Shown: positions 7,598-44,520 of the stretch, piece by piece | Numbering within the stretch: the first letter of the stretch is position 1 | How the letters are laid out: every line of letters starts with the position of its first letter | NCBI GenBank assembly: GCA_027061805.1 | Contig: JAMOWA010000037.1 | Coordinates: 1 to 44,520 of the forward strand | Direction: 5' to 3' | Length of the DNA stretch: 44,520 nucleotides | Origin: Thermoanaerobaculia bacterium | Lineage (GTDB): Bacteria > Acidobacteriota > Thermoanaerobaculia > Thermoanaerobaculales > Sulfomarinibacteraceae | Notes under the pieces: generated by a model | What the model saw: only the letters and a program-made list of their open reading frames with translations | What the model was told of the DNA's origin: nothing | Databases searched by the model: none | Program-made: the position numbers and the translations under genes

Positions 7598-7630
7598 GGG
7601 GCCGACCGTACTCCATCGGGGGCGCCGGCG

Positions 7631-8644
7631 CTACCGGCGGCGCCCGTTCCTCCCGGTGAGCAGCAGCAGGAAGACGGGGCCGCCCACCAGGGCGGTGAGC
7701 ACGCCCACGGGCAGCTCGGCGCCCCGGCCCAGCAGCGGGATGGTGCGGGCGGCGGCGTCGCAGGCCACCAGGAAGGCGCCGCCGGTGACCACCGCGGCCG
7801 GCAGGCCCAGCCGGTGCCCGGGTCCCATCACCAGGCGGACGCCGTGGGGCACCAGCAGGCCCACGAAGGCGATGGGGCCGGTCCAGGCCACACAGGCCGC
7901 GGTGACCCAGGCGCCCGCCAGCAGGGCCGCCGCCCGGACCCGCACCACGTTCACCCCCCGTCCGTGGGCCACCGCGTCGCCGAAGGCCAGCTGGTCCAGG
8001 GCGGGCGCCGAGAGCAGCAGCACGGCCACGGCGGGGAGCCCCATGCCGGCGGCCCATGCCGGGGCCGTCCAGCCGACCACGTCCAGGCCGCCCAGCAGCC
8101 AGCGGTCCATGGAGTGGAGGCGGAAGGGGTCGGCCAGGAGGCGCAGCATCACGGTGGCGGCGGCGAAGACGAAGTTCAGCGTCACCCCTGCGAGGATCAA
8201 CCCCGGCGCCCCCCAGCGTGCACGGCGCGCCAGCAGCGTGAGCAGCCCCGCCTCCAGCCCGCACCAGACGAGGGCCTGGGCGGGCACCGAGCCCAGGGGG
8301 CCCAGCGCAACGGTGAGGGAGGTGGCCAGGGAGAGGAAGGCGCCGAAGGAGCCCGCGGCGGCCAGGCCCAGGGTGTAGGGGGTGGCCAGGGGATTGGCCA
8401 GGAGCGTCTGGAACGCCGAGCCCGCCACGGCGAGGCCGCCGCCCACCAGGAAACCGAGAACCACGCGGGCCAGGCGGAGCCGGACGATCTGGACGGTGAC
8501 AGGGTCGGCGGCCTCCGGCCGGAACAGGGCGCGGAGCACCTCGGCCGGGGCGAGGGGCACGGCACCCACCGCCGGGGCGAGCACCACCACGGCGGCCGCC
8601 AGGAGCACCAGCAGGCCAAGGGTCACCGGACCGCGGCGGCTCAC
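7631..8644 (-). CDS. btuC: FecCD-type ABC permease, vitamin B12 importer
   Basis: This 337-residue protein has about 9-10 transmembrane segments and BtuC/FecCD signatures: RLARVVLGFLVGGGLAVAG, the LANPLATPYTLG stretch, and GPIAFVGLLVPHGVRLVMG, which contacts the ATPase. Its start overlaps the ATPase stop by four bases. It is the third gene of the btuF-btuD-btuC set, and cobalamin specificity rests on the riboswitch ahead of btuF. The family forms a homodimeric channel in the inner membrane. Confidence 0.85.
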   Translation of the reverse strand: MSRRGPVTLGLLVLLAAAVVVLAPAVGAVPLAPAEVLRALFRPEAADPVTVQIVRLRLARVVLGFLVGGGLAVAGSAFQTLLANPLATPYTLGLAAAGSFGAFLSLATSLTVALGPLGSVPAQALVWCGLEAGLLTLLARRARWGAPGLILAGVTLNFVFAAATVMLRLLADPFRLHSMDRWLLGGLDVVGWTAPAWAAGMGLPAVAVLLLSAPALDQLAFGDAVAHGRGVNVVRVRAAALLAGAWVTAACVAWTGPIAFVGLLVPHGVRLVMGPGHRLGLPAAVVTGGAFLVACDAAARTIPLLGRGAELPVGVLTALVGGPVFLLLLTGRNGRRR

Positions 8645-26120: not shown

Positions 26121-27215
26121 TCAGGTCTCCATGAAGACGAGGACCACGTCGCCCAGCTGGACGCTGTCCCCGTTGGAGAGCTTCCACTCGGTCACCTGGA
26201 CCCCGTTGACGAGCGTTCCCACGGTCGAGCCCAGGTCACGGATCACGTAACCGTCCTCGGCGAGGACCACCTCGGCGTGACGCCGGGAGACCTTCTTCCC
26301 CGAGAGCACGATGTCATTCTCGGGATCCCGTCCCAGGGAGGTGGTCGAACCCGCAACCGGGTACTCCACGGTGGATCCGTCCTCCGCCTGCCCGATCAGC
26401 TTGGGCCAGGAGATCAGCATGGTGGAACCCCCGGCGAACTCCTGCGCGTCCTCACCACCGCCCGCCAGCATCTCCGGGGGCACCGGGATGGCGGCAGTGG
26501 CGTCGGGAACCACGTCCGCCTCCGGGTTCGCGGAGCCCGTCTCCCCGTTGTCCCGCAGCATGGCGTCCACCTCGGGGACGAAGGGCTCCTCTTCCGGGAC
26601 CCGGGACCCTGCCGCAGTCGCCTTTTCCTGGAAGGGGGCCTCCTCGTCCGTGTCCGGCGATCCGACCTCCTGCGTGTCCGCCTCCGGTTCCTCACCGGCA
26701 AGCTCGAGCGGAGGGGAGGGTTCCCCGGCGAGTTCCGCCCCCGGAGCCGTGGGCGGCGGCACCTCGAGCTCCTCCGGAGCCAGGAAGGCCGACTGGAAGC
26801 GCTTCTGGAGCTCCTCCGCCTCGGTCAGCTGCTCCTGGTGCTCGCGAATCCTGGCCTCGTGCTCCTCCACGAGCCCGTCGTACTTCTCCTGACTGAACTC
26901 GCCCAGCTCGTGGCGCAGCTCGAGCTCCTCGCGGTCCAGCTGGGCTGTCCGGACCGCCGCCCCGATCTCGTCGAGCAGCTGCTTGAGGCGCGCGTACTCG
27001 GTACGGGCCGCCTCCTTCAGAGGGGCCGCCTCCTGCTCGAGGGCGTGCATCCGGGTCTCGTAGTCCTGACGGACCCGCATGAACACCTCCTCCGAGACCT
27101 TGCCCTTCTTCTCCTCCATCTTCGTGAGCCTGTCGGAGAGGATCTCCTGTTCACCCTTGATCCGTTGCAGCTCCTCGATGGCCGACGTGTCGATGGCTTT
27201 CAGGTCGTCCAGCAT
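26121..27215 (-). CDS. Coiled-coil protein with C-terminal FHA domain
   Basis: This 364-residue protein has an N-terminal coiled coil (about 12-160, with heptads such as LKQLLDEIGAAVRTAQLDREELELRHELG), an acidic Pro/Glu-rich middle (about 165-280) and a C-terminal FHA domain (about 285-355). The FHA residues are SLGRDPENDIVLSG, KKVSRRHAEVV and STVGTLVNG, which bind phosphothreonine. It is a likely signalling adaptor for a Ser/Thr kinase not present here. A second FHA domain is fused to the exporter at 29127-32621. Confidence 0.83.
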   Translation of the reverse strand: MLDDLKAIDTSAIEELQRIKGEQEILSDRLTKMEEKKGKVSEEVFMRVRQDYETRMHALEQEAAPLKEAARTEYARLKQLLDEIGAAVRTAQLDREELELRHELGEFSQEKYDGLVEEHEARIREHQEQLTEAEELQKRFQSAFLAPEELEVPPPTAPGAELAGEPSPPLELAGEEPEADTQEVGSPDTDEEAPFQEKATAAGSRVPEEEPFVPEVDAMLRDNGETGSANPEADVVPDATAAIPVPPEMLAGGGEDAQEFAGGSTMLISWPKLIGQAEDGSTVEYPVAGSTTSLGRDPENDIVLSGKKVSRRHAEVVLAEDGYVIRDLGSTVGTLVNGVQVTEWKLSNGDSVQLGDVVLVFMET

Positions 27216-29126: not shown

Positions 29127-32100
29127 CTACGCCATCTGGCGGCGTGCCAGGGCCGCGAAGAGGCCATCGAGCTCCATGAGCTCCTCGAAGGTGCCGGACT
29201 CCACCAGGCGGCCCTGGTCCAGGTAGCAGATGCGGTCGGCGTTGGCGATGGTGCTGAGCCTGTGGGCGATGACGATGCGGGTGGCGAAGAGCCGTTCCAT
29301 GGACTCGGTGACGATGGCCTGGGAGCGGTTGTCCAGCGCGCTGGTGGCCTCGTCGAAGAAGAGGATCCGCGGCTTGCGCACCAGGGCGCGGGCGATGAGG
29401 AGTCGCTGGAGCTGCCCGCCGGAGAAGCCGCCGCCACCCTCGCTGACGTAGGTGTGCATGCCCATGGGCAGCTCCTTGATGTCGTCGGCGAGTCCGGCCA
29501 TCCGGGCGGCCTCCCACGCATCCTCGATGGTGAGGTCCGAGGCGCCCACGATGTTCCGGAAGATGTCGGCCGGCAGAACCTTGGCATCCTGGAGGACCAC
29601 GCCGAGTTGCTGGCGGACCTCACGGACGTCCAGGCTTGCCAGGTCCTGACCGTCGTAATAGATGGCGCCACGAGCGGGTGTCTCGAAGCCCAGCATGACC
29701 CGCATGAGCGTGGACTTCCCGGACCCCGAGCTCCCCACGAACGCCACGAACTCGCCCGGCTTGATCTCGAGGGAGATGCCCTGGAGGATCCACGGTCCGT
29801 CCTCGGAGTACCGGAAGTGAACGTTGGCGATCTCGATGGCGCCCCTGAGCGTGCCGGGGTAGGCCTTGGACTCGTCCACCTCCGGCTCGGTGATGATGAT
29901 GGGCTTGAGGCGCTCGAAGACGGGGACGATGCGGAGCAGGTTGAGGGAGGCCTCGCCCAGGGCCTGGATGGCGGAGGAGAAGGCCCCGTACGCCGCGGTG
30001 AACGCGATGAATTCGCCGGTGCTCATGCCGCCGGGACCGCCGCCCCCTCCGGCTTCGGCCGCATGTCGCAGGGCCACCAGGACGTAGAAGATCGCCATGG
30101 ATGACAGGACCGGGAAGCCCGAGACGAACACCGAGACGGCGTTCTGGATCCGGCCGATGGCGAACTCCAGCTTGCGTTGCCGGGAGAACTCCCGGGCCCA
30201 GACCCGGAAGGCGTGGTTTTCCGCCCCCGCGACCCTCAGCTTCGACACGCCTGAGATGAACTGGAGCACCATGCCCGTGATCCGGCCCCTCAGCTGCATG
30301 TGATCCCTCTGGAGGCGGAGCTGGAGGTAGTTGGCGGTGGTGGTGAACCCCACGAAGGCCAGCGTGAGGCCCATGGCCAGCAAGGCCAGGGGTGCGCTGT
30401 ACTTGAACATCAGGAAGACGTAGAAGATCGAGCTCATGGAGCCGAGGATGGCCGAGATGCCCGCCCCGGCGATCAGGTCTCGGATCCGGGCGATGCCACC
30501 GGCACGGTCCGCCAGGTCGCCAGCGGAGAACTGACGGAAGAACGTGGAGGGGAGGTCGAGGAGGCGGTCCCAGAGCGCCGCCTGGATGGAGTAGTCCATC
30601 CGCCCCTGGATCCTGAGGACGGCGATGCTCTGGGTGATCTTGAAGGCGGCGGAGATGAGCGCTGCCAGGAAGAGGCCGGTGGTGTACTGGAGGAGCAGGC
30701 TCCGGTCCGCCTGGGGAATGGCCGTGTCGAAGAGCTTGCCCGTGAAGATGGGTGTCAGTGTGCCAAGGACTCCGAGGGCGATGCCCATGAACATGAGTGT
30801 GACCACGTCGTGCTTGAGGCCGCGGATCCCGAATCGCATCAGGTCCCAGGCCGTCAGCTTGCCTTCGGGGAATGGCCTGTAGAAGGTGACCCCGAAGGGG
30901 GCCAGGGAGGCGACGAGCTCGTCGGTGACGGGCTCCCGCGTCCCGGCCTTCGGGTCCACGCACTCGTAGGAGGTGGGACCGGTGGGGAGAAGGGCCACGG
31001 GGTTGCCGCTGTCGGCACGCCGGCCCAGGAGTGGGCCGGCGTCCAGGTGCCACCACTCCTCCCTCAGGGCGACGGCACGGGTCCGGAAGCGGGAGGCCTT
31101 GGCGATGGCCGCCACCATCCCCTCGAAGGTCCGTTCCCGGGCGCCCTCGGGGTGCTTCCGGGCGGTGATCCCCGTGGCCTCGGCCACCAGGCGGACGGCC
31201 TCGAAGACGGCGTCGTCGGTCCCCGGGACCTGGCGTGCTCCCTGCTTCTCCTTCCCGGCGAGGACGCTGGCCAGGTCCCGGATGGCCTGCAGGCGGGCCG
31301 CGCGGGCGTACTCGGCCTTGGAACGGAGTCGGTTGAGCTCGTCCACGGCCGACAGGCGCTTGTTGATGAACTCGCACCTGCACAGCACATGGTGGAACAC
31401 GTCGAGACCGCGCCAGAAGGCCTCCCGGTCCACCACCTCGCCGGAGGGATGGGGGAGGACGGTGGCACCCTCCCCCCGCGGATCGACCGCGGAGATCCAG
31501 GTGTGGGTGGAGACCGGGAAGAGCACGCGTTCGCCCCGGGCCCGCCGGACCAGGTCACCCAGGCCCATGGCTCCCGTTCCCGGTTGTCCCCCGCCGGCGA
31601 GCTCTTCCAGGTCCAGCTCCTCCATGTCGATGAACAGGAGCTCGCCGGCCTGCGCCTCGATCCAGAGCACCCCCCGGCCGGACAGCGCCCGCTGGCTGGG
31701 AAGCAAGCGTGCGGATTCCGACGGCAGCAGCGAGATCTCCTCCATGGGAGGGGGCACGATGTCCTCGGTGAGGCCGGAGGACAGGGCCGCCACCCAGCGG
31801 TCCACCAGCTCACCGACCTCGGAGGCCAGCCCGGGATACCCGGCCAGTTCCCTGAGTCTCGCGCTGGGAAGTCTCTGCAGCGTGGTCCCGATGCTGCCGA
31901 CGGCCAGGAAACCGGAGCCGCCGGCGAAGAGAGCGGGGTCCATCCCCACCAGGAGTCCCCCCTGCTCCACGGTGACGAAGTGATTCCTGGCCCCCCGGGG
32001 CTCGCCGTCCTCCACGGCCACCGTGAACACCTCCACCTTGCCGCTGGCCACGTACCACACGGAGGTGGGATCCCCCAGCAGGAAGGGACGGTTCCCCGTG

Positions 32101-32621
32101 GCCTCGAAGGCCTCTCCCTCTCGTTCGAAGGCCTCCAGCACCGATCCGGGAGGGGGGCCGGCCGGACGTCGCGGTTCCGGCGGGGCGGCTGGCCTGGGAG
32201 GGGCGGGAGGAGCAGCGGGCGGCGCCGCGGGCCGTCGGGGCCCGGAAGGCCGGCCCGGGGCTGCCGGCTCGCGCTCCCCTGCACCGGAGGGCCGCTGCGG
32301 GGTGGGAAGGCTGAACCTGAACCTGGCGGTGCCCAGGCGGAATTCCTGTCCGTCCTCGAGCATGTGGCGCTCGATCCGGCGATCCCCGATCCAGGTGCCG
32401 TTGGAACTGCCCAGGTCGCGGAGCTCCCACCCCCCCTCCACCTGGCGGATCTCCGCGTGCCGGCGGGAGACGGAGGGATCCCCGAGGACCACGTCGCAGT
32501 CCGGCGAACGTCCGATGACGATGCCACCCGGGTCGAGGGCGAGGACATCGCCCACCCGGGCCGCGTCGGCCGTGGCCAGAACGTGGAGCCGGGGGCGGTC
32601 GGGGGGGGTGTGGCCTTCCAT
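29127..32621 (-). CDS. NHLM-type bacteriocin ABC exporter with fused FHA domain
   Basis: This 1164-residue protein has four parts. An N-terminal FHA domain (about 13-105) carries VIGRSPDCDVVL, VSRRHAEI and SSNGTWIGD. A Pro/Ala/Arg-rich linker (108-160) precedes a cNMP-like beta-barrel and accessory region (about 165-590), as in the ATP-binding component of NHLM bacteriocin systems. An ABC exporter core follows: six helices (about 600-895), Walker A GSSGSGKST at 964-972, FSGGQ at 1067-1071 and Walker B ILFFDEATSALD at 1087-1098. There is no C39 peptidase. It probably works beside or with the peptidase-exporter encoded four bases upstream. The FHA fusion implies control by phosphothreonine binding. 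Confidence 0.88.
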   Translation of the reverse strand: MEGHTPPDRPRLHVLATADAARVGDVLALDPGGIVIGRSPDCDVVLGDPSVSRRHAEIRQVEGGWELRDLGSSNGTWIGDRRIERHMLEDGQEFRLGTARFRFSLPTPQRPSGAGEREPAAPGRPSGPRRPAAPPAAPPAPPRPAAPPEPRRPAGPPPGSVLEAFEREGEAFEATGNRPFLLGDPTSVWYVASGKVEVFTVAVEDGEPRGARNHFVTVEQGGLLVGMDPALFAGGSGFLAVGSIGTTLQRLPSARLRELAGYPGLASEVGELVDRWVAALSSGLTEDIVPPPMEEISLLPSESARLLPSQRALSGRGVLWIEAQAGELLFIDMEELDLEELAGGGQPGTGAMGLGDLVRRARGERVLFPVSTHTWISAVDPRGEGATVLPHPSGEVVDREAFWRGLDVFHHVLCRCEFINKRLSAVDELNRLRSKAEYARAARLQAIRDLASVLAGKEKQGARQVPGTDDAVFEAVRLVAEATGITARKHPEGARERTFEGMVAAIAKASRFRTRAVALREEWWHLDAGPLLGRRADSGNPVALLPTGPTSYECVDPKAGTREPVTDELVASLAPFGVTFYRPFPEGKLTAWDLMRFGIRGLKHDVVTLMFMGIALGVLGTLTPIFTGKLFDTAIPQADRSLLLQYTTGLFLAALISAAFKITQSIAVLRIQGRMDYSIQAALWDRLLDLPSTFFRQFSAGDLADRAGGIARIRDLIAGAGISAILGSMSSIFYVFLMFKYSAPLALLAMGLTLAFVGFTTTANYLQLRLQRDHMQLRGRITGMVLQFISGVSKLRVAGAENHAFRVWAREFSRQRKLEFAIGRIQNAVSVFVSGFPVLSSMAIFYVLVALRHAAEAGGGGGPGGMSTGEFIAFTAAYGAFSSAIQALGEASLNLLRIVPVFERLKPIIITEPEVDESKAYPGTLRGAIEIANVHFRYSEDGPWILQGISLEIKPGEFVAFVGSSGSGKSTLMRVMLGFETPARGAIYYDGQDLASLDVREVRQQLGVVLQDAKVLPADIFRNIVGASDLTIEDAWEAARMAGLADDIKELPMGMHTYVSEGGGGFSGGQLQRLLIARALVRKPRILFFDEATSALDNRSQAIVTESMERLFATRIVIAHRLSTIANADRICYLDQGRLVESGTFEELMELDGLFAALARRQMA

Positions 32622-32625
32622 GCCC

Positions 32626-34851
32626 TCACACCTTGATGAGCTCGGCGTAGGGGCCGGGCACGTCCTTCATCTCGTCGTGGGTGCCGCGCTGCACGATCTT
32701 GCCGCGGTCCAGCACGATGATCTCGTCGGCGTCACGGATGGTGCTGAGCCGGTGGGCCACGATGATGCACGTGCAGCCCCGCCGCCTCAGGCTGTCGTCC
32801 ACCCAGCGCTCGGTGGTGGGGTCCAGGGCGCTGGTGGCCTCATCCAGGATGACGATGGTGGGGTTGCCCACCAGGGCCCTGGCGATCTCCAGCCGCTGGC
32901 GCTGGCCTCCACTGAAGTTGGTCCCGTTCTCGTTGACCTCCGAGTGGTACTTGCCCGTACGGGACTGGACGTCGTCGTCGATGGCGGCATCCCGGCAGGC
33001 CGAGGTCACGGCCTTGATGGGGATGGTGGAATCCCACATGGTGATGTTCTCGTAGATGGTTCCGGCGAAGAGGAAGATCTCCTGGTCCACCACGGCCAGG
33101 GAGTTCCGGATGAGGCTGGCCGGGAGCTCTTCCCGGGGGATGTCGTCGAAGAGGATCTGGCCGCTCCAGGGCCTGTGGAGGCCGGCCACCATGCGGGCGA
33201 TGGTGGACTTGCCGCTCCCGCTCCGTCCCACCAGCGCCACACGCTGGCCCGGCTGGATCACGAGGTTGAAGTCCTCGATGAGCGGCTTGCCCAGCGGGTT
33301 GAAGCCGAAGCAGACGTTCCGGAGCTCCACCTTGCCCGAGAGCTTGAGCTGGCCGTCCGGCCCCGTGGTGATGGAGGGGGCCGAGACCTCGGTGACCTCC
33401 CGGGTGTACTCCTCGTCCATGGGGTACTCGAGGACGTCGTCCAGGCGGTTCATGTCGGCCTCGAGCTCCTGGAGGGTGGCCCCGAAGCTCACGAAGGTGT
33501 TGAGGGGTTTGGTGAAGCTGGCCATGAGGCTCTGGTAGGCCACCAGCATGCCCACGGTGAGCTGCCCGTCCATGACCTTGAGGGAACCCAGGAGGAGGAT
33601 GGTGGCGGTGGTGAGCGTGCTCACCAGGGGCGGCACGGCGTTGACCAGCTGGGTCCACAGGCCCAGCTCCTGCTCGGCCTTGAGGGACTTGGCCTGGTAC
33701 CCGGCCCACCGCGAGAAGAACTCCGATTCCGAGCCCGAGGCCTTCAGGGTGTCGATGATCCTGAGGCCGTTCATGGCGGTTCCGGTGAGCTTCCCGGCCT
33801 CCTGGAGGAGCCTCCGGCTGGCGTCCACGCGCTTGCGCGCCACCAGCTTCACCGCCACGATGTTGGCCATGGCGATGACGATGCAGACCAGCGTCAACCC
33901 GATGTCGTAGAGGAACATGAGCAGCGCGTAGAAGACCACGAGGACGCAGTCGAGGATGGTCGTGGCCAGCTTGCCCGAGACGATCTGGGCCACCTTGTTG
34001 TTGATCTGGACGCGGGAGCCGATCTCCCCGGCGTAGCGCTGGGAGAAGTAGGAGACGGGAAGCCGGAGGATGTGGTTGAAGAAGTCGCTGGACGTGATGA
34101 TGGCCAGCTTGGTCTCCATGCGGAGCAGGTAGTACTCCTGGAGCCAGGTGAGCCCCATCCGGACGAGGGCGGTGAGGCCCATCCCGAAGAGGAGGGGGCG
34201 GATGAAGGACTCGCGTCCCGCCACGAGGTACTCATCGATGAAGACCCGCGAGAAGGTGGGGACGACGAGCCCGGGGATCACCAGGAACAGGCCACACAGC
34301 ACGATGAACAGGAGGGCGGTCTCGTGTCCCTCCAGTCGCCGCTTGAGGGCCGGGATGATGGTGCGTTTCTGTCCACCCTTGACGAAATCGGGACCGGGCT
34401 TGAAGGTGAGCACCACTCCCGAGAAGGAGGCGTCCAGCTCCTCCAGCGTGATGACGCGCGGACCCGTGGCGGGATCGTTGAGGTAGGCCTTGCCGTTCTT
34501 GAACCCCTCCAGCACCAGGAAGTGGTTGAAGTTCCAGAACAGGATGACGGGCAGCTCGATGTCCCAGAGCCGATCCAGGTCGTACTTGTAGCCCTTGGCC
34601 TCGAGCCCGTACTTCCGGGCCGCCTTGAGCACGTTGGAGGCCTTGCTCCCATCGCGGGAGACCCCGCACTCCACCCTGAGCTCCTCCAGGGGAACCCACC
34701 GCCCCCAGTAGGCGAGGATCATGGCCAGGGCGGCGGCGCCGCATTCCACGGCCTCCATCTGGAGGATGGTGGGCACCTTGGCCCGGCGGTTCTTCACCTT
34801 CGGGTAGGTGGTGGGTTCGAGCGCCTGATCCTGATCGTTGGCCATCGTCAC
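32626..34851 (-). CDS. NHLM-type peptidase-containing ABC exporter (C39)
   Basis: This 741-residue protein cuts double-glycine leaders and exports the product. The C39 peptidase (about 20-150) has Cys37 in EAVECGAAAL, His110 in NFNHFLVLEG and Asp126 in YLNDPATGP, the complete catalytic set. Six membrane helices (about 175-440) and the ATPase follow, with GRSGSGKST near 541-549, FSGGQ near 645-649 and VILDEATSALD. The start is either the GTG at 34851, directly after the HlyD stop, or the ATG six bases on. The expected substrate is the GG precursor at the window's right end. Confidence 0.93.
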   Translation of the reverse strand: MTMANDQDQALEPTTYPKVKNRRAKVPTILQMEAVECGAAALAMILAYWGRWVPLEELRVECGVSRDGSKASNVLKAARKYGLEAKGYKYDLDRLWDIELPVILFWNFNHFLVLEGFKNGKAYLNDPATGPRVITLEELDASFSGVVLTFKPGPDFVKGGQKRTIIPALKRRLEGHETALLFIVLCGLFLVIPGLVVPTFSRVFIDEYLVAGRESFIRPLLFGMGLTALVRMGLTWLQEYYLLRMETKLAIITSSDFFNHILRLPVSYFSQRYAGEIGSRVQINNKVAQIVSGKLATTILDCVLVVFYALLMFLYDIGLTLVCIVIAMANIVAVKLVARKRVDASRRLLQEAGKLTGTAMNGLRIIDTLKASGSESEFFSRWAGYQAKSLKAEQELGLWTQLVNAVPPLVSTLTTATILLLGSLKVMDGQLTVGMLVAYQSLMASFTKPLNTFVSFGATLQELEADMNRLDDVLEYPMDEEYTREVTEVSAPSITTGPDGQLKLSGKVELRNVCFGFNPLGKPLIEDFNLVIQPGQRVALVGRSGSGKSTIARMVAGLHRPWSGQILFDDIPREELPASLIRNSLAVVDQEIFLFAGTIYENITMWDSTIPIKAVTSACRDAAIDDDVQSRTGKYHSEVNENGTNFSGGQRQRLEIARALVGNPTIVILDEATSALDPTTERWVDDSLRRRGCTCIIVAHRLSTIRDADEIIVLDRGKIVQRGTHDEMKDVPGPYAELIKV

Positions 34852-36000
34852 CTAGCTCAGTCCGAGGGTTCTACGGAAGATCGGGAGCACGTACGAGATG
34901 GGCCGTTTCTTCTCCACGGTCACGTTCCCCGTGCAGATGGTTCCGCTGAAGACCTTCATGGGTGGTCCCTTGGAGGAGGACCACGCGAAACCGCTGGGGG
35001 TGGTGGGATCCAGGAGGAGCTCCACCGCCACCTCGATGGGAGCGGTCTTGCCCGTCAGCTCCTGGATGAGCTTCTCGTTGCGGAGCACGCGGCGCAGGCC
35101 CTCGGGGGTGACGGGGTAGTCCGAGACCGTCTCGACCCTGCCGAGCATGAAGCCGTACTCCTCCGGCCGCACGGTGGTGGGGGAGACGTAGACCTCCATG
35201 CCGGGCCGGACCTTCTTCCCCTCGGCAGCGGGGATGTAGATGATGGCCTTGATGGGCTTCTCGGCGGATTCCAGCGTCACGAGACGGCTGCCTGCGCGGA
35301 CCTGGTCCCCGGCCTCCACGGCGACCTCCACCACGCGTCCCGAGAAGGGGCTGACGATGTTGGAGGTGGCCTCCAGCTCGTTCTCCAGCTCCTTGAGCTG
35401 CTGGCGCACGTCCTCGACGCGGTTGCCCACCCCTGCCTGCTGGGCCTGGAGCTGGGCGATGTTCTGTTCCACGGCGGTGAGCTCCGCCCGCGTTCGCATG
35501 AGCGTGGTGTTGGTGAGCAGACCCTTGGCCACCATCTCCTCCTGGGTGGCGATCTTCCTGCGGAGCTCCGTGGCCTGGGACCGGTACCGGGAGAGGAGGC
35601 GCCGCTGGGCCGAGGTCTGGCGGCTTCCCTGGCTCTCCAGCCGGGCGAGGTCGTCGCGGGTGTTCTGGATCTTCAGGCGGAGGGCGGGACGGTCGAGACG
35701 AGCGATGACGGTACCCTTCTCGATGAAGTCCCCGGGACGGACGAGGACCTCGGAGAGCCGCCCGCTGGTGGTGCTCGTGATGTCCAGCACCGACTCGCCG
35801 CGGATCAGCATGCCCTTCCCCGTGACCTTGATGGAGATGGTTCCCACCACGCTCCAGACGATGATCGCGAGGAGGAGGCAGCCGATGGCGCCCAGCGCCA
35901 GCCACCCCGCGGGGGAGGTGATGTGCATGAGCTCGTCGAGTCGCTCCGGTGAGGAGAGTTTCTCGAGCGCCGCCTTGCGGAAGAGCTTGCTGGGATCCAT
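34852..36000 (-). CDS. HlyD-family periplasmic adaptor of the NHLM export system
   Basis: This 382-residue protein is started here at MDPSKLFRKAAL (ATG complement of 35998-36000); an upstream frame would overlap the TolC gene. A short cytoplasmic part is followed by one membrane helix (GWLALGAIGCLLLAIIVWSVVG). Next come a lipoyl/barrel half (GESVLDITSTTSGRLSEVLVRPGDFIEKG), a long alpha-hairpin (about 125-220), the second lipoyl half (VSPFSGRVVEVAVEAGDQVRAG) and a beta-barrel. It should bridge the inner-membrane exporters to the TolC proteins. It is adjacent to, and stops on, the C39 exporter start. Confidence 0.88.
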   Translation of the reverse strand: MDPSKLFRKAALEKLSSPERLDELMHITSPAGWLALGAIGCLLLAIIVWSVVGTISIKVTGKGMLIRGESVLDITSTTSGRLSEVLVRPGDFIEKGTVIARLDRPALRLKIQNTRDDLARLESQGSRQTSAQRRLLSRYRSQATELRRKIATQEEMVAKGLLTNTTLMRTRAELTAVEQNIAQLQAQQAGVGNRVEDVRQQLKELENELEATSNIVSPFSGRVVEVAVEAGDQVRAGSRLVTLESAEKPIKAIIYIPAAEGKKVRPGMEVYVSPTTVRPEEYGFMLGRVETVSDYPVTPEGLRRVLRNEKLIQELTGKTAPIEVAVELLLDPTTPSGFAWSSSKGPPMKVFSGTICTGNVTVEKKRPISYVLPIFRRTLGLS

Positions 36001-36031
36001 GAGTAGTTTTCCCCGGCCTGTCAGCCTGTGC

Positions 36032-38029
36032 TCATGATGTGACCCCCCCGGCCACATCGAGGTCCGAGAGGTGGAGCCCCTCCACGATCACGTGCCCCTC
36101 GTCGATCCGGAGATCGACCAGCGTTCCGGTCTCGAAGCGGAGCCGTGTCAGCAGGGATGCCATGTTCTGGCGTGCGCCCACCAGGAGGATTTCCTGCTGA
36201 ACCTGTTGCTCCTGGGTCAGGATGAGGTCGATGGCGGTGCTTTCACCCGCCTCGAACCTCTGGATCTCGGCATCGAGCGCGGCGTTCTGCCGTTCCAGAC
36301 CCCGGGCCCTCTTGAGGACCTCGGCCATGGCCTTCTGGAGCGAGACGGCCAGGTCCTCCACGGTGTTGAGGATGGTCCTCTCCAGATCGCGCCGCTGGAT
36401 CCGCCCCTGTTCCTCCAGGGACCGGGCCTGCATGAAGCGGCCCTGTGCCACCCTGTTGGCGAAGGGGAGCTCGAAGTCCAGCACCACGCGGAAGCTCGGC
36501 CCCGCTGCGAAGTCGGTGATGGCGTTGCCCCAGCCCTTGAAGAAATCGGTGGCCTGGGTGATGTCGCCCCCCTCCTCGAGGCCGGCGTACGCGAAACCGA
36601 GCTGGAGATCCACCCGCCGCTTGAGGTCGAAGCGGGCGGCCTCCGACAGGATCCTCGAGGCCTCCAGACGGTCGGCGGCCGCTGCGAGGTCGTAGCGGCG
36701 TTCCAGGGCCATCCGCCCGAGCTCGCCGGGGTCCCAGGCCGGGATCTCGAAGTCCGGCGGGAGCATGGGGAGAGCGTCGGCCGCCAGCGGCGCCTGTTCG
36801 ATGTCGGAGACCTCGACGCCCATGGCGTCGGCCAGGGACACGCGGGCGCTGATCACGCCCTGCCGTGCCGCGGCCACGGAGCCGCGGGTCCGCTCGAGCC
36901 TGGCCCTCACGAAGTCGAGGTCGGCTCTCGGGAGCTCGTCCGCGGCCACCAGGGACTTCGCCATCTCCAGCAACCGTTGCTCCAGGGCCTCGGACGCCTC
37001 GAGGAGGTGGAGGCGTTCCTGGGCCGCCGCGAGGCTCCAGTAGGCGAGGGCGACGGCCTGGACCTGTGCAGCGATGGTGTGGGCCTCGCTCTCGAGGGCT
37101 GCCCTGGCGCTCGCCTGCGCCGCCCGCTCGGGGGCTCCGGTGGACACGGTGCCCCGCCCCTTGCCCAGGGGAATATCGAGGGTGAGCCCGAGGACCGACC
37201 GGACCGTGTCGGGGATCCCCTTGCCCCCGTAGCTGGGACTCCGGGGCTTGCCGTGGTAGTTGTCCTGGACCGAGGTCAGCATGACGGTGGGCTGCAGGAG
37301 CATGCCGTTGCGGAAGAGCTTGGCCAGCCGGAGGTCGAGGGAGACCGTCAGGGTGTCGTTGAGGGTGGGGATCATCCCCATCTTCCGGAGGTTCTCCCGC
37401 TGGGTGTAGGCGGTGATGTTGAGGATGTCCACGATGTTGGCGGCCTCCCGGCGGTTGGCTTCGACGAGGGCGGCCGCGATGTCCTCGGCTCCGGAGGCCT
37501 CGGCGAGGGACAGGAACAGCTCCATGTTGGCCTGCTGTCTGGCGGAGATGCAGATGGGCCGGTTCCCGATGGTGAGGTCGAATCCCCGTCCGCAGTCGGC
37601 GAAGACGAAGCCCTCCTCGCTCTCGTTCAGCTGGCGCTCCAGGTCATCGGCCACGCTCTGGAGGTTCTCGGCGAGGATCCGGAACAGGTCCCTCTTCTGC
37701 TTCTCGGCGTCGAGCTGGGCCTGGGTGAGGTGGATCCGGTTGTACTCGGCGGAGAAGATCATGCCCAGGCCGAGGTCGAAGGGGCCCGTGTTCTGCCGGA
37801 GCAGGCCCTCGGAGGCCAGGGTGTTCTCGCGGGCCAGCTGGATGGTGGGGTTCCGGGAGAGCGCGATGCGGGCCGCGTCCGGGAGTGCGATGGCCCCGCC
37901 GGATGCGGCCTGTTCCTGTCGGGCCGGCTCGGCTTCCTGAGCGGCTGGTGTGGCGATCGGCGTCAGGACCAGACCCGCCGCGAGGAGGCCCGCCGGCAGG
38001 CAACGGAGCGGTGGAGGCATGGTGCGCAT
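36032..38029 (-). CDS. TolC-family outer-membrane factor, copy 1
   Basis: This 665-residue protein has a signal peptide (PPPLRCLPAGLLAAGLVLTPIATPAAQ). Two outer-membrane-efflux repeats follow, with typical long helices (ALAYWSLAAAQERLHLLEASEALEQRLLEMAKSLVAADELPRADLDFVRARLERTRG; second half EQGRIQRRDLERTILNTVEDLAVSLQ). It is longer than E. coli TolC (about 490) because of an insert at roughly residues 90-230. It lies between the second TolC and the HlyD adaptor, so it is the likely outer-membrane channel of the RiPP exporter. Confidence 0.85.
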   Translation of the reverse strand: MRTMPPPLRCLPAGLLAAGLVLTPIATPAAQEAEPARQEQAASGGAIALPDAARIALSRNPTIQLARENTLASEGLLRQNTGPFDLGLGMIFSAEYNRIHLTQAQLDAEKQKRDLFRILAENLQSVADDLERQLNESEEGFVFADCGRGFDLTIGNRPICISARQQANMELFLSLAEASGAEDIAAALVEANRREAANIVDILNITAYTQRENLRKMGMIPTLNDTLTVSLDLRLAKLFRNGMLLQPTVMLTSVQDNYHGKPRSPSYGGKGIPDTVRSVLGLTLDIPLGKGRGTVSTGAPERAAQASARAALESEAHTIAAQVQAVALAYWSLAAAQERLHLLEASEALEQRLLEMAKSLVAADELPRADLDFVRARLERTRGSVAAARQGVISARVSLADAMGVEVSDIEQAPLAADALPMLPPDFEIPAWDPGELGRMALERRYDLAAAADRLEASRILSEAARFDLKRRVDLQLGFAYAGLEEGGDITQATDFFKGWGNAITDFAAGPSFRVVLDFELPFANRVAQGRFMQARSLEEQGRIQRRDLERTILNTVEDLAVSLQKAMAEVLKRARGLERQNAALDAEIQRFEAGESTAIDLILTQEQQVQQEILLVGARQNMASLLTRLRFETGTLVDLRIDEGHVIVEGLHLSDLDVAGGVTS

Positions 38030-38042
38030 GGTCCACCTCCCC

Positions 38043-40016
38043 TCAATCCACCCGGGGCGGCGTGACGAGGTCGGCAGCGGCGATGGAACCGCTTCCTCCC
38101 GCCTCGGTGAGCAGCGTGCCCGTCTCGTAGCGGAGACGTGCCAGGAGCCTGGCGTAGGTCGCCTCGGCAGCCACGAGGGACAGCTGGGCCGTGAGCTGGC
38201 GCTGCTCGGTGGTGATCGTGTCGATCACCGTCGAGGCCGAGAGACGCAGACGCTCCATCTCGGTCTCCACGGCGCGTCCGTAGGCTTCCACGGCGGCCCT
38301 GTAGCGCGCCACCTGACGGGCCGCCTCGCCGAGAGTGCGGGCCGCCTCCACGACATTGAGCCCGATGAGCCGTTCCAGGTTGGCGTTGGAGATCCGGGCC
38401 TGTCGGTAGAGGGCCTCCTGCTGGGCGAGGCGGCCCTCCTGGATGTTGTTGGCGAAGGGGTAGTCCACGTTGAGGGCGATCCGGCCGCTGGGTCCCGCCC
38501 AGTCCCCGGTCAGCGAGTCCTTGATGCCGGTGCCGGCGGCGTAGCTCTCGCCCAGACCGCTGGCCGAGACCTCCAGCTCCAGGTCGAACACCCGCCTGAG
38601 ATCCAGGAGGGCCGCACGGCTGAGCACCTTCCCGGAGCTCTCGAGGAGCCGGGATGCCCTCAGGTCGAGGCGGCGCTCCAGGGCCACGGAAACCAGGGGC
38701 TGCGGGGAGAGTGACCGCAAGAGGTCGTCGCCGGGAAGAGCGGGGAAGCCGTCGGAGGCCAGCGGGGCGATCCCCTCGCCCCGAAGCTCGAGGCCGATGG
38801 CGTTGGCCAGCGCGATCCGGGCCGTCTGCAGACGCCGCCTGGCCGCCTCCACACCGGCCTCGACCTCGGCGACCCGGGCCTCGGTGCGGGCCAGCTCCGA
38901 CCTCGGGATCTCGTCGGCGTCGATGAGCGTCCGGGTGGTCTCGAGGATCTTCCGGTTCAGCTCGAGCGAGGTCTCCAGCACCTGGAGGCTCTCCTGGGCG
39001 GCCACCACGTCCCAGTACGCCAGCAGCGTGGTGTAGGCGTTGAAGGACACGGCGTGGGCGAGGGCCGCCTCGCTGGCCTCGTGGTCGATCTGTGCCGCAC
39101 GCTCCCTCGCGCCGGTGGACTCCACGCCCCGTCCGCGGCCGAGGGGGATGAGGACCCGGAAGCCCAGGGTGGAGGTGTAGGCATCGATCACCCCCATCCC
39201 CCCGTCGTCCACGTCATGTTTCTTGCCCTTGTAGTTGGCGCCGGTGCCCGTGAGATCGTAGAAGGCCGAGATCGAGATGCCACTCCGGAACTGCCTGTCG
39301 AGACTCAGGTTGAAGTTGGCGTTGAAGCTCTGGATCACGTCGGGCACGTCGCCGAGCCGGTCCAGCTTGCCGGAGAGATCACTCTCGGTCTCCAGTGCCT
39401 GGGCAAGCCCCTCCTCGACGGCCTGGGCCTGCCTGTCGAGGAACTCGAGGATGGCGTCGCGGAAGGCGTCCTTCTGGTCCTCCGGTGCTGTCTCGTACAT
39501 CTGGATGAGGAGCTCGTACTGTGCCTGGGCGATGGGATCCGTGAAGCCCACGGAGCCGGGGTCGCCGCCGGATTCCCAGACGTCCCGGACGTCGTTGAGC
39601 TCGCCGAGGCTCCTCTGGTACTCCTCGATGGCGTTGCGCGCGGTGTCGAGCCGATCGGCGAGGTCGTCCCTCCGCTTCTGCTCCGCCTTCTTCTCCTTGG
39701 CGGTGAGCCGGCTCTGGGTGTACTCGTAGGAGAGCCCGCCGTAGAGGGTGGTGTCGAACTGGCCGGTGGCCTCGGTGGCGAGTCCCAGCCTGAACATCGT
39801 GTTCTCCTCCTGGAGCCGGATGTTGGGCTGGTGTTCCAGGGTCATCTTCACGGCGTCCAGGGCCGAGATGGTCCCCGTGGTGACGATCCCGGGCTCCCAG
39901 ACCCGGGCCTGTCCGGTGACGGGAGTGCTCTCCCCGGCCACCAGGGGCATGGCAAGCCCGAACAGAGTCACTGCGAACGCTGCCAATACGATGGTGATCG
40001 TCGTGCCTGGCTTCAT
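38043..40016 (-). CDS. TolC-family outer-membrane factor, copy 2
   Basis: This 657-residue protein has a signal peptide (ITIVLAAFAVTLFGLAMPLVAG). It shares the architecture of copy 1, including matching segments such as TLEHQPNIRLQEENTMFRLGL against LSRNPTIQLARENTLASEGLL, GRGRGVESTGARERAAQ against GKGRGTVSTGAPERAAQ, and LIDADEIPRSELARTEARVAE. It has a similar mid insert rich in Lys/Glu/Arg. It overlaps the GNAT gene by ATGA. The paralogues are clearly diverged, which suggests two roles (for example a mixed trimer or two exporters) rather than a recent duplication. Confidence 0.85.
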   Translation of the reverse strand: MKPGTTITIVLAAFAVTLFGLAMPLVAGESTPVTGQARVWEPGIVTTGTISALDAVKMTLEHQPNIRLQEENTMFRLGLATEATGQFDTTLYGGLSYEYTQSRLTAKEKKAEQKRRDDLADRLDTARNAIEEYQRSLGELNDVRDVWESGGDPGSVGFTDPIAQAQYELLIQMYETAPEDQKDAFRDAILEFLDRQAQAVEEGLAQALETESDLSGKLDRLGDVPDVIQSFNANFNLSLDRQFRSGISISAFYDLTGTGANYKGKKHDVDDGGMGVIDAYTSTLGFRVLIPLGRGRGVESTGARERAAQIDHEASEAALAHAVSFNAYTTLLAYWDVVAAQESLQVLETSLELNRKILETTRTLIDADEIPRSELARTEARVAEVEAGVEAARRRLQTARIALANAIGLELRGEGIAPLASDGFPALPGDDLLRSLSPQPLVSVALERRLDLRASRLLESSGKVLSRAALLDLRRVFDLELEVSASGLGESYAAGTGIKDSLTGDWAGPSGRIALNVDYPFANNIQEGRLAQQEALYRQARISNANLERLIGLNVVEAARTLGEAARQVARYRAAVEAYGRAVETEMERLRLSASTVIDTITTEQRQLTAQLSLVAAEATYARLLARLRYETGTLLTEAGGSGSIAAADLVTPPRVD

Positions 40017-41074
40017 GGCTCCTCCTCCTTCGGATCGGCCCCTGCCGGTGTTCCCTGCCCGTGGCCAGCGGAACCCTGGTGGTCCCCGTCATCTCGCTGG
40101 CCGGTTCCGGACCGGGAGTGATCGTGGTCCTCACTCCCCACCTGGGGGAGGGTCAGTTTCTTCGAGGTGCCCCGCGTCTCGGCCGTGAGACCCACGTGGG
40201 GCGCGCACCTCCGGCGCACGAAGGCCACCATGGCCGGATGGTGGGCGGGGGCGACCAGCGTGCCGGTGGTGAAGGACGTACCCTTCATGCGGCGCAGGGA
40301 CTCGGCGTACAGGGTGATGAGCAGGCCCCTCCGCCCGAGCTCGGGGTGGATGAAGCTGCAGGTGTAGCGCAGGAAGTGGGGCCCCAGGGCGTGGTTGATG
40401 ATCCAGCCCACGATGGCGCCGTGCCTCCGGAGGGCCATGCTCGTCACGGGCTCGAAGCCGTCCGCCTCGAAGTCCCACGGCCGCAGGTCCTCCGCGATCC
40501 AGCCGGTGACCGCGTCCGAGGCCTTCAGAGCGGCCTTCTCGGTGTCGGTCACCTCCGCCCATGGGATCGCCTCGAAACCGGGACGGACCCTGAGGCGCAT
40601 CCAGGGAATCCGGTCCAGGTCCTCCACCGAGAAGCGGACCAGCACCGTCCGTAGGGTGGGCTGATCCCAGCCCAGCCGGGTGAAGATCCGTTCCACAGCC
40701 GTGGTGGAGGCCTTGCCCGTGGTGTACACGGCCCTGATCCGCTCGAAGCCGCGCCGTGCCACCTCGCGCTCGGTGGCGGCGGTGAGGAGTGTGCCGAGGC
40801 CCTGGCCGCGAAGGGAGGGCGACACCCACAGGGACAGGAGCTCCGGATCACGGCCCGACTCGACCGGAAGCTCCGACAGGGCCAGGCCAGCCGGTCGATC
40901 CCCCACGAAGAGGCCGATGGCCAGGGGTTGGATCCGGGGAGCGTTCCGTGCGTCTTCGTGCCGGGTCGTCGGGGTGAGCGCGAGGAGATGGCGGTAGGCC
41001 GGGAAGGTCATCTCCCTGAAGGGCTCGCCCTCTCCGGGCTCCAGGACACCGAGCTGGGGATCCACGGGGCTCAT
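40013..41074 (-). CDS. Two-domain GNAT acyltransferase of the RiPP cluster
   Basis: This 353-residue protein has an N-terminal GNAT domain with the acyl-CoA pyrophosphate loop VSPSLRGQGLGTLL (about 84-97) and the characteristic YTTGKASTTAVERIFTRLGW. The second half (about 195-300) reads as a GNAT too (IHPELGRRGLLITLYAESL). Residues 311-353 are a His/Asp/Gly-rich tail. GNAT enzymes of this look occur in NHLP/Nif11 RiPP clusters; in selidamide pathways such enzymes attach fatty acyl groups to Lys or Orn side chains. Acylation of the core here (Lys1 or Lys12) is an inference. Overlaps on both sides fix it in the operon. Confidence 0.78.
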   Translation of the reverse strand: MSPVDPQLGVLEPGEGEPFREMTFPAYRHLLALTPTTRHEDARNAPRIQPLAIGLFVGDRPAGLALSELPVESGRDPELLSLWVSPSLRGQGLGTLLTAATEREVARRGFERIRAVYTTGKASTTAVERIFTRLGWDQPTLRTVLVRFSVEDLDRIPWMRLRVRPGFEAIPWAEVTDTEKAALKASDAVTGWIAEDLRPWDFEADGFEPVTSMALRRHGAIVGWIINHALGPHFLRYTCSFIHPELGRRGLLITLYAESLRRMKGTSFTTGTLVAPAHHPAMVAFVRRRCAPHVGLTAETRGTSKKLTLPQVGSEDHDHSRSGTGQRDDGDHQGSAGHGQGTPAGADPKEEEP

Positions 41075-44000
41075 GCGGGCCTCCGTCGGGTCGGGGGGCG
41101 GAAGGACAGGACCGACGGAAGCTCTCCGGGCCTGGCCATCCGGAGGCAGGCGTGGCCGATGCCTGCAAGGCCCTGGAAGAATCCGGGTGGCTCGGACGAG
41201 GCACCTCCCCCTCGTCCCAGTGCGAAGCGACCCCGTTCAAGGTTCTGCCGCATCACCCCTCCCATCATCGCCTCCGCTGCCGCGATCAACTCCGGGCGGT
41301 GGCGGAGGAGGCCTGCTTCCAGCACGATATCTGTGCGCCCGAGGGTACCACAACAGAGGTGGTGGGGACCACTGGAAGGCGTCCCGAGTGTTGTCTCCAA
41401 CGCGACCTCGAGCTCCCGGGCCACGTGCTCTCCGGATTCGATGGCCATGAGCTCCAGCCGGGCGAGGGCGATGCCGGGGGCGCCGTGACACCACGCCGTC
41501 ATGGGGATCCTTCGTGGTGGCTCGCCGGTTTCCGTGTCCACGACGAGGGGCCAGTTGCGGGATTCCGGGTCGAAGACCGTCCGCTCGAAGGCCAGACCCT
41601 CCCGGATCGACTCCAGGAGCCGCCGGTCCGGTCTGTGCCGCTGAAGGCGTGCCAGCGCCGTGACGATGCCGCTGGCGCCGTGGGCGAATCCGGCGACGGG
41701 GCGATCGTGGATCGTGGGCCAGCCACCGGCCTCCTCGCCCGAATGGACCTGCCGCTGCACGAGGTGCTCTGCGCAGATGCCAGCCCGGTCGAGGAGCCAC
41801 TCCTCCCCGGTGAGCTCGTGGAGACCGGCCAGGGCCAGGAGGGCACCGGCCGAACCGGCGACCACGTCGAGCCTCCGGTCCTCCCGGATCCTGCCGGGCT
41901 CCAGCAGGCGGGCCACCCGGGAGGCCTTCTCCACGAGTGCCGGTTCACCGAGGAGATGGCCCGCCAGGCCCAGCGTGTGGACGAGGCCCCCGAGGCCGCT
42001 GCAGATGCCGATGGTCTCGTTCTCGAGAAAGGACCGGTACCGTGGCTTCTCCAGAAGGGGCCCCACGAAGTCCAGGCTCCGGTGTGCCAGCTCCTTCCAG
42101 CGGTCCTCCCCGGTGACCCGGGCCAGGGAGGCGAACAGGAGTGCGGGGCCACACGCCCCGTCGTAGAGCGCATGGGGGATGCCGCCGGTCTCCAGGACGC
42201 GCCCCGGCACCAGCCAGGTCAGTGCACCGTCCTTCCCCACGACGGCCAGCTCTTCGAGCCGGGAACCGATGCTGCACGCGACCTCGAGCAGCACGGTCGG
42301 GGACACGCCGGGGGAGGGGGTGGGGGAGTCCGTTGCGGGGGCGGGGGCTTCCTCCGGGACCGCGTGACCGGGCGGCTCCAGGATCATCTCGAGGATGCGG
42401 ACCTGCCGGTCCAGGTCGCGGTCGTCCAGGGCGGCCAGACGGTGACGGAAGGCCTCCATGCCGGAGAGGTCCAGGGTGCCGTCCAGGGGCCGTCCCCCAC
42501 CGTCCGGGATCGCCTCCGCCTCCACAGGCACGGTGAACCGCGGCAGGTCCAGCCCCTCCAGTGCCCGGCGTTCCACGGAGACCAGGGGCCAGACGGGCGG
42601 CGGATCCGGGAGACGAAGTAGGGGGCGGTTCAGCGACTCCAGCAGCAGGCTGGCTGCGAGGGAATCCTTCTGGTACCGGGGTTGGAGCATGCTGCGCAGC
42701 ACGAGGACGTAGAGATGGCTGGGCCGGAACACGACGCGCGTGGAGAGGCCCTCCAGGGCGGGCACGAAGCCACCACCCTCCAGGAGTTCGTCCCGGGAGC
42801 GCATGAAGATCCGGTAGGCGGCCTCGAAGCCATCGCGGAGTGCTTCCACGTGGCCGGAGGGATCCACCGGCTCGCCATCGACGCAGAGAACGTTGGCGCC
42901 CCGGGGAGCGACGGCGTTCTCCTCCCTGACATCGAGCCGGTCCGTCCCGATGCCGGTCCACCTGCGGCGTCCGGTGGCGAGGCGGTACCCCCCCCGGCCC
43001 AGGATTCCCCCGATCTCCACCGGCGTGCTGCCGGGTCTCTCCTGCCGGAAGCTCAGAAGGCCCGTGGCCAGGAATGAACGCTGGAGCGCCGACCGGAACG
43101 GGTCGTCCTCCCGGGACGTTCCGGTTCCTGCGGCGGGGTGCCGCAGCGCCGGCTGGAGCAGGGTCTCGAGGTCCACCACCACCGGCCCCTCCCCGGTGGC
43201 GACGACGTTGTCCATGTGGAGGTCCGTGGCACCGAGGACATGGGTCACGCAGAGGAGTGCCCCGGCCCGACGGAACCACCGGTCGAGGGACTCCCGGTCC
43301 CCGGGCTCCCCGGGCCGGACGTACTCCATCCAGCCGTACGACCCCCGCGGGAGGGCCCGTACCGCACGGGGCACCGGGTCCAGCCCGTGGGTCTCGAGCC
43401 AGGCCAGGACCTGCGGCAGTGCGGCCTCCGCGTCCACGGCCCGTGGCTTGTAGACCACCCGGAGACCCGATTCGAACTCCAGGATGGCGACCCGCCGGCC
43501 GCCGGCGTGACGGTCGGACAGGCCGGCCTCCACGTGGCGGATCCTGCCGGGAGTGTGGCCGTCCGAGAGCTCGCGGGCCAAGAGCTCCCTGTCGGCATGG
43601 ATCCTCTCGAGCATCTCGGCCGTGGAGGCGATCCAGGTGTCCAGCACCCTGCACAGCTGGCGCGCGAGGGCGGGGTACTCCTCGAAGAGTGGGAGCAGCC
43701 CGCGGCGCAGCTGGTGCTCCACGAAGGCACCATAGGCTCCGTTCCGGCTTCCACCCGTTCCTCCACGGAACTGCTCGAAAGCGGCCATCGCGCACAGATC
43801 GGAGACCTGGTGCACAAGGTGCCGCGCGAGATCCCCCATGGCCGCTCGCGCGAGCAGGGGAAAACCGCTGGTACAGGCCTTTCCGAGTCCCTCCAGGGCG
43901 AAGGTGGCCACTCTGGCCCAGATCTCGAAGAATGGCAGCTCACGTTCCAGGCCCAGCTCCTGGACCACCGGGGACGTCACTGTCGACGGATCCCCCACGA

Positions 44001-44388
44001 ATGTCACGAGAGCCTCGAGCCGCTCCAGCCATTCCATGCCCGGAGCACCCCGGGGCGCGTCGGTACCGAGCGAGGTCGCCAGGACCTCCCGGGTGTCCTC
44101 CGGTGTCAACCCGTCCCAGGCCAGGCGCCGTCCGAGCGCGACTGATCCTCCCACTGCCTTCTGCCACCGCTCGAGGAGCCCGAGCGTCCGATCGGTATCG
44201 GGACGGGGGTGCCCGGACCGGTCACCTCCAGGGGCGAGGTGCTCGGCCAGGGTCCTGGCCCTCGATACGACGCCACGGAGGGGGTGCTCAGCCGGGCGGG
44301 GCCCGTTTCCGGAGGGGGAACCATGGCCACCCGCCCCCGGTGGACGGGTGGCCCGGACGTGCGAACCGAGTTTGGTGCGTTCTGGCAC
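41071..44388 (-). CDS. lanM: Class II lanthipeptide synthetase LanM, CCG type
   Basis: This 1105-residue bifunctional enzyme starts at a GTG (complement of 44386-44388), 15 bases after the precursor stop. The dehydratase (DUF4135) region, about 190-600, shows VYKPR (312-316), ATDLHMDN (387-394) and VVDLETL (404-410), the kinase-like sites for phosphorylating Ser/Thr. The LanC-like cyclase, about 730-1090, has GFAHGASG (His903), WCHGAPG (Cys967) and LCCG (Cys1012, Cys1013). The last makes a three-Cys zinc site as in ProcM rather than the usual Cys-His. It should install dehydro-residues and thioether rings on the adjacent peptide. Confidence 0.93.
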   Translation of the reverse strand: MPERTKLGSHVRATRPPGAGGHGSPSGNGPRPAEHPLRGVVSRARTLAEHLAPGGDRSGHPRPDTDRTLGLLERWQKAVGGSVALGRRLAWDGLTPEDTREVLATSLGTDAPRGAPGMEWLERLEALVTFVGDPSTVTSPVVQELGLERELPFFEIWARVATFALEGLGKACTSGFPLLARAAMGDLARHLVHQVSDLCAMAAFEQFRGGTGGSRNGAYGAFVEHQLRRGLLPLFEEYPALARQLCRVLDTWIASTAEMLERIHADRELLARELSDGHTPGRIRHVEAGLSDRHAGGRRVAILEFESGLRVVYKPRAVDAEAALPQVLAWLETHGLDPVPRAVRALPRGSYGWMEYVRPGEPGDRESLDRWFRRAGALLCVTHVLGATDLHMDNVVATGEGPVVVDLETLLQPALRHPAAGTGTSREDDPFRSALQRSFLATGLLSFRQERPGSTPVEIGGILGRGGYRLATGRRRWTGIGTDRLDVREENAVAPRGANVLCVDGEPVDPSGHVEALRDGFEAAYRIFMRSRDELLEGGGFVPALEGLSTRVVFRPSHLYVLVLRSMLQPRYQKDSLAASLLLESLNRPLLRLPDPPPVWPLVSVERRALEGLDLPRFTVPVEAEAIPDGGGRPLDGTLDLSGMEAFRHRLAALDDRDLDRQVRILEMILEPPGHAVPEEAPAPATDSPTPSPGVSPTVLLEVACSIGSRLEELAVVGKDGALTWLVPGRVLETGGIPHALYDGACGPALLFASLARVTGEDRWKELAHRSLDFVGPLLEKPRYRSFLENETIGICSGLGGLVHTLGLAGHLLGEPALVEKASRVARLLEPGRIREDRRLDVVAGSAGALLALAGLHELTGEEWLLDRAGICAEHLVQRQVHSGEEAGGWPTIHDRPVAGFAHGASGIVTALARLQRHRPDRRLLESIREGLAFERTVFDPESRNWPLVVDTETGEPPRRIPMTAWCHGAPGIALARLELMAIESGEHVARELEVALETTLGTPSSGPHHLCCGTLGRTDIVLEAGLLRHRPELIAAAEAMMGGVMRQNLERGRFALGRGGGASSEPPGFFQGLAGIGHACLRMARPGELPSVLSFRPPTRRRPA

Positions 44389-44403: not shown

Positions 44404-44520
44404 TCAGAAGACACCCATGTCGGTTGTGATCTCCACGTGGGTGCCGATGCCCTTGATGTCGTTGCAGGTGTACTCGGTCTCGCCCTTGCCGCCGGCGACC
44501 ATCTCGAGGTCGGCGTCGGA
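44404..44520 (-). CDS. Lanthipeptide precursor with NHLP-like double-glycine leader (3' part only)
   Basis: This frame is visible only as 38 C-terminal residues ending at the TGA (complement of 44404-44406); the start lies beyond the window. The leader end SDADLEMVAGG matches the LExVAGG cleavage site of nitrile-hydratase-type and Nif11-type leaders. The remaining core is 27 residues (KGETEYTCNDIKGIG... ending TTDMGVF) with one Cys (position 8), five Thr (4, 7, 16, 21, 22) and no Ser. At most one methyllanthionine ring can form. It is 15 bases upstream of lanM, in the same operon, with the C39 exporter as the obvious protease. Confidence 0.85.
   Translation of the reverse strand, partial: SDADLEMVAGGKGETEYTCNDIKGIGTHVEITTDMGVF

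Follow-up and report, generated by a model that had tools for sequence, protein, structure and literature searches.

A sigma-54-associated cassette in Thermoanaerobaculia that probably encodes a single-ring, lysine-acylated class II lanthipeptide with a nitrile-hydratase-like leader

Does the broken end of this contig encode a peptide and, if so, what might its neighbouring genes make of it? The question arises at positions 44404-44520 of the window, the whole 44,520-nucleotide stretch analysed, which is one contig (C37) of the 68 that make up the 3.1 Mb genome of a Thermoanaerobaculia bacterium. Translated on the reverse strand, these positions read SDADLEMVAGG-KGETEYTCNDIKGIGTHVEITTDMGVF-stop, the last 38 codons of a gene that is interrupted at the contig end. 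The core contains one cysteine (position 8), five threonines (4, 7, 16, 21 and 22), no serine, and lysines at positions 1 and 12. An earlier sequence-only reading had described this composition behind LEMVAGG in the same terms, all of which the translation confirms. It had also assigned the frame to a class II lanthipeptide precursor with a GG leader and recommended reading past 44520 for the leader and any further precursor genes. Contig C12 of the same genome starts with the final 91 bases of the window, an exact overlap, and joining the two contigs produces an open reading frame of 111 aa (P1), with an AAAGGAG ribosome site 5' of its ATG. The full leader is thereby recovered and the frame is that of a peptide gene. 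This leader scores 71.7 bits against the NHLP (nitrile-hydratase-like) family TIGR03793 (cut-off 50.9) and 30.5 bits against PF02979, and terminates in VAGG; it has both the likeness to the nitrile hydratase alpha subunit and the Gly-Gly end of an NHLP (proteusin-type) leader. That the frame might not be a gene at all is ruled out by the joined open reading frame, the TIGR03793 score and homologues in about 20 other genomes that share its core motif.

44404..44520, reverse strand: 3' part of precursor gene P1 (translation; 91-base exact overlap with C12; joined 111-aa frame; NHLP leader TIGR03793)
44488-44520, reverse strand: last 11 leader residues of P1, SDADLEMVAGG
44407-44487, reverse strand: P1 core, 27 aa
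44404-44406, reverse strand: P1 stop codon
L004:92-310, reverse strand: remainder of P1, on contig C12
L004:671-1006, reverse strand: second precursor copy P2, outside the window and upstream of P1

One further precursor gene lies past 44520, as the sequence-only reading had allowed for. P2 is 94% identical to P1, their cores are equal save for the last residue (L for F), and both are preceded by an AAAGGAG-type ribosome site; no other NHLP precursor in the genome scores above the cut-off. The two genes share an exact stretch of 147 bases, which takes in the leader's end and most of the core, and because this repeat is longer than the 91-base overlap an extra precursor copy is possibly hidden at the C37-C12 join. 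Unbroken relatives nevertheless have their genes in the order of the joined sequence (activator, P2, P1, LanM, GNAT, exporters). An exact -24/-12 site, TGGCACATCCCTTGCT, is located 76 bases 5' of the start codon of both P1 and P2; no other exact site of this type occurs in that contig, where 0.01 would be expected by chance. Most relatives carry a match of 9-11 of 11 before the first precursor, whilst second and third tandem copies often have none. The gene adjoining the precursors is a sigma-54 activator, and rpoN is encoded in the genome. A literature search for RiPP production under sigma-54 control returned nothing relevant. A resemblance of the C-terminal ...V-E-I-x-A-S-L-F of the core to an outer-membrane beta-signal was also considered, and the claim of mimicry was dropped.

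Downstream of P1, the window holds a run of modification and export genes:

41071..44388, reverse strand: LanM, class II lanthipeptide synthetase (dehydratase and LanC-like cyclase) with a three-Cys (CCG) zinc site (TIGR03897, 685 bits; DUF4135, LANC_like)
40013..41074, reverse strand: tandem GNAT acyltransferase with its P-loop (RGQGLG) confined to the N-terminal domain (PF00583; AF2 model; P-loop scan)
38043..40016, reverse strand: TolC-family outer membrane protein 1 (TIGR01844, 47 bits, under the curated cut-off; conserved cassette position)
36032..38029, reverse strand: TolC-family outer membrane protein 2 (TIGR01844, 68 bits, under the curated cut-off; conserved cassette position)
34852..36057, reverse strand: HlyD-type NHLP secretion protein (TIGR03794, 361.7 bits)
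32626..34851, reverse strand: NHLP exporter with C39 peptidase, predicted to remove the leader after GG (TIGR03796, 1120.8 bits; PF03412)
29127..32621, reverse strand: second NHLP ABC exporter subunit with an N-terminal FHA domain (TIGR03797, 914.6 bits; PF00498)

The NCBIfam matches of LanM, the HlyD-type protein and both exporters (TIGR03794, TIGR03796 and TIGR03797) are all over cut-off. LanM, the only one in the genome, has LicM2 as its nearest solved relative by sequence. Its kinase-like residues K, D-x-H-x-x-N and D (YKPR, DLHxxN, VVDxE) are kept in 16 homologues, and the zinc cysteines at WCHG and LCCG are present in 16/16 (C967, C1012 and C1013 being invariant). A LanM with both DUF4135 and a LanC-like cyclase domain thus adjoins a precursor with an NHLP leader, the gene arrangement of class II lanthipeptides, and the assignment made by the sequence-only reading is supported by these domain matches. 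By the criterion of three cysteine ligands (PMC13060382), the enzyme would also fall with the ProcM clade. In the exporter, the Cys, His and Asp motifs of the C39 peptidase are all there (QMEAVECG, NHFLVL and NDP). The FHA domain of the second subunit (PF00498, 78 bits, residues 34-97) has counterparts in a further FHA protein at L004:2445-3329 and, by eye, in the FHA-like tail of an open reading frame at 26121-27215 of the window; FHA domains at the exporter and nearby genes suggest phospho-threonine control of export.

Precursor homologues occur in 21/99 near genomes, and a looser reach brings matches in 31/148 genomes of the class, remote NHLP proteins included; within the genome sample searched, the only close homologue beyond the class is in G483. 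The cassette itself was found again in one genome outside the class and in about 20 within it. Around close homologues the order is activator, precursor(s), LanM, GNAT, TolC, TolC, HlyD, ABC, ABC, usually accompanied by a cNMP/FHA protein and a STAS protein, and precursors stand in tandem in four relatives (G065, G097, G107 and G140). A LanM search of genome contigs returned only distant LanM loci (27-31% identity).

The GNAT offers a first test of what the cassette may do to its peptide. Its AF2 model contains two GNAT domains (pLDDT 84), with the tandem GNATs 2wpw, 5kgh, 7q3a and VipF as best PDB matches. In nostolysamide biosynthesis, the tandem GNAT NpuN, with a P-loop in its N-terminal domain only, acylates Lys1 of NpuA (PMC13060382). 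Across the genomes compared, those with a lysine within core positions 1-6 all carry a GNAT (20/20), and those without such a lysine carry none (0/3; Fisher p = 5.6e-4, a value that ignores shared ancestry). These three genomes (G056, G140 and G483) belong to different families (f10, f7 and f68), and whole-genome searches of each with the GNAT profile found no GNAT of the cassette family. Since the GNAT covaries with the early lysine and NpuN acylates Lys1, Lys1, which the sequence-only reading had already put forward, is the likely acylation site, and where a GNAT partner is present the product probably bears a fatty chain near its start. Could the GNAT instead be a resistance or otherwise unrelated enzyme, the product then being an unlipidated monocyclic peptide? 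Resistance enzymes are common amongst GNATs, three of the cassettes have no GNAT, and the activity of nostolysamides did not need lipidation (PMC13060382). We nevertheless regard this alternative as unlikely, given the perfect co-occurrence with the early core lysine, a tandem fold like that described for NpuN and the fixed position of the gene between LanM and TolC. The cores without a GNAT (G056, G140 and G483; L049, L096 and L106) open with FL or FF, as though a hydrophobic beginning took the place of lipidation, and those of G140 have a long Gly-rich stretch before the cysteine.

With a single cysteine, at most one thioether ring is possible, as the sequence-only reading had stated, and of the two pairings it offered, Thr4-Cys8 and Cys8-Thr16, conservation favours the second. 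Core statistics were drawn from 27 readable cores, excluding those of G090, G105, G106 and G016 (run-on, cut or masked), the remote NHLP homologues L056-L059, which have other cores and no cassette, and L055, which has a Cys-free core and a LanM without cyclase. Exactly one cysteine is present in 27/27, and the single-Cys design is a conserved trait of the precursor family. A [ST]-x-[VIL]-x-[ILVFM] motif begins 7-13 residues after the cysteine in 27/27, whereas a Ser/Thr two or more residues ahead of the cysteine is found in 21/27 and the upstream Thr is not conserved; these cores, being homologous, are not independent, and the argument for the ring lies in what is kept versus lost. In an alignment of 15 precursors the cysteine is the only invariant core column, and the column of Thr16 (T100) holds Thr in 14 and Ser in one. 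The core of G012 is nearly identical around the cysteine (YTCNDIKGIGTHV) yet lacks Thr4, and that of G056 (FLDHNCNKAQGGINTHVEIKLV) has one cysteine (Cys6), one threonine (Thr15) and no serine. As the downstream Thr/Ser is kept, Thr4 is missing from some cores and G056 has but a single Thr, Thr16 emerges as the conserved partner of Cys8, and the ring is most likely Cys8-Thr16. Ring closure in either direction has been reported for three-Cys LanM enzymes of the ProcM clade (PMC13060382). A five-residue Thr4-Cys8 ring in the usual orientation, formed by the same pathway while Thr16 stays unmodified or as Dhb, would suit the direction closed by most LanM enzymes (PMC13060382), and the core does have Thr4 and Thr7 before Cys8, with Ser/Thr at -3 to -6 from the cysteine in several relatives. 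This pairing is improbable, however, as Thr4 is missing from G012, G007, G056, G483 and G097a and all 27 readable cores retain the downstream Thr/Ser. Less probable still is a LanM that only dehydrates, leaving Cys8 free or in an intermolecular disulfide: ring-free products may exist nearby, in that a G012 locus pairs a Cys-free core with a cyclase-less LanM, but the cyclase domain and three zinc cysteines are intact in 16/16 cassette homologues and the single cysteine is invariant.

The feature is best read as a core peptide within a class II lanthipeptide precursor that has an NHLP leader; this core probably, taking the sequence evidence together, acquires a Cys8-Thr16 ring and an acylated Lys1 and is exported, as follows. 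The sigma-54 activator would switch on both tandem precursor genes. LanM would bind the leader, dehydrate Thr16 and perhaps other threonines, and close a single (methyl)lanthionine ring by adding Cys8 to Dhb16, the cysteine lying on the N-terminal side of the ring; the tandem GNAT would attach an acyl group to the Lys1 side chain. Cleavage after AGG would then fall to the ABC exporter's C39 domain, with HlyD and TolC carrying the product out of the cell.

The nearest described system is the phaeornamide pathway of the selidamides (phaA, phaM, phaN and phaT1-T3 of Pseudophaeobacter arcticus; PMC9505594), followed by the nostolysamides. In common with phaeornamide, the cassette has an NHLP precursor, a class II LanM, a GNAT acyltransferase and NHLP exporters cutting at Gly-Gly. 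The phaeornamide product contains a MeLan ring and a side-chain amine acylated via the GNAT (PMC9505594), and with the GNAT at 40013-41074 beside an NHLP precursor and LanM, the genes expected of a selidamide, membership in the selidamides is likely. Phaeornamide differs in its acylated residue, (hydroxy)ornithine as opposed to a predicted Lys here, and, unlike its pathway, the cassette genes examined include no arginase or hydroxylase. Two TolC genes, the sigma-54 activator and promoters, an FHA-fused exporter and a class-wide conserved core further distinguish the present cassette. The nostolysamide system (NpuA, NpuM and NpuN of Nostoc punctiforme; PMC13060382) shares a three-Cys zinc LanM, a Lys1 directly after GG and, going by the description of NpuN, a tandem GNAT with an N-terminal P-loop. 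NpuA, however, has a Nif11 leader, four cysteines and four rings, in contrast to the NHLP leader and one cysteine here. The prochlorosins and SyncA peptides (ProcM/SyncM) likewise depend on three-Cys LanM enzymes, with rings in either direction and single-ring members. In those systems a single enzyme serves many scattered precursors with Nif11 leaders and hypervariable cores, whereas the cores described here are conserved and cassette-bound. An exception is G132, with scattered copies: three near-identical single-Cys precursors lie on separate contigs (L090, L091 and L092; C1353, C1349 and C5), none with a LanM found beside it, and LanM and GNAT matches fall on other contigs of that genome, making a one-enzyme, many-substrates layout possible.

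The sequence-only reading called the architecture minimal and unusual, which is fair, although phaeornamide (PMC9505594) and single-ring SyncA peptides (PMC9872173) are precedents. A survey found single-cysteine lanthipeptides to be often predicted and essentially never demonstrated (PMC11251773). Its 179 peptides, a mixed prediction list, have a single Cys near a lanthionine cyclase gene, as here. New in the present case are a cassette with conserved single-Cys cores, a predicted ring from Cys to a downstream Thr, the GNAT/Lys co-occurrence and putative sigma-54 control, by which the cassette links RiPP production to that regulon type. Given a core motif that is kept throughout the class and not diversified, a conserved secreted lipopeptide, signal or surface-active, seems slightly likelier than a diversifying bacteriocin. 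A wider proposal, possible but doubtful as a whole, is that these lanthipeptides form a family of their own, under sigma-54 control, with one ring and in most cases a lipid, the conserved core reflecting action on the producer's own population or envelope as a signal or surface factor and not as a bacteriocin, with some lineages having dropped lipidation for an FL/FF start. The family provides a clean test case: one cysteine, one conserved partner, homologues without other Ser/Thr, and GNAT-plus and GNAT-minus members. With native substrates, it would allow a test of reverse-direction ring closure and of what lipidation does for a RiPP, a role described as unclear in the nostolysamides (PMC13060382).

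Some related loci depart from the common pattern. The related precursors of G090 (two copies) and G105 have the core GDINVKLGGEVSC, with no conserved Thr readable past the cysteine. These lie on the forward strand at 8540 and 10387 of L054 (G090) and at 3184 of L095 (G105), the core being followed by a run-on frame or the contig end, and may represent a frameshift, a pseudogene or another core type. At L055 (G012:C340), a LanM-like protein of 658 aa (6133-8109, reverse strand) stops after the dehydratase domain (DUF4135, no LANC_like) and adjoins an NHLP precursor (8137-8535, reverse strand) with the Cys-free core SGVVTVTMEGLTHTRGGFGELSLITVTMPGFRGR, possibly specifying a ring-free dehydrated peptide or else marking a decayed locus. 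Finally, the G033 precursor (L050:9540-9917, reverse strand) carries a duplication of the leader segment HLVMPYVPKEGE, amounting to a 12-residue insertion.
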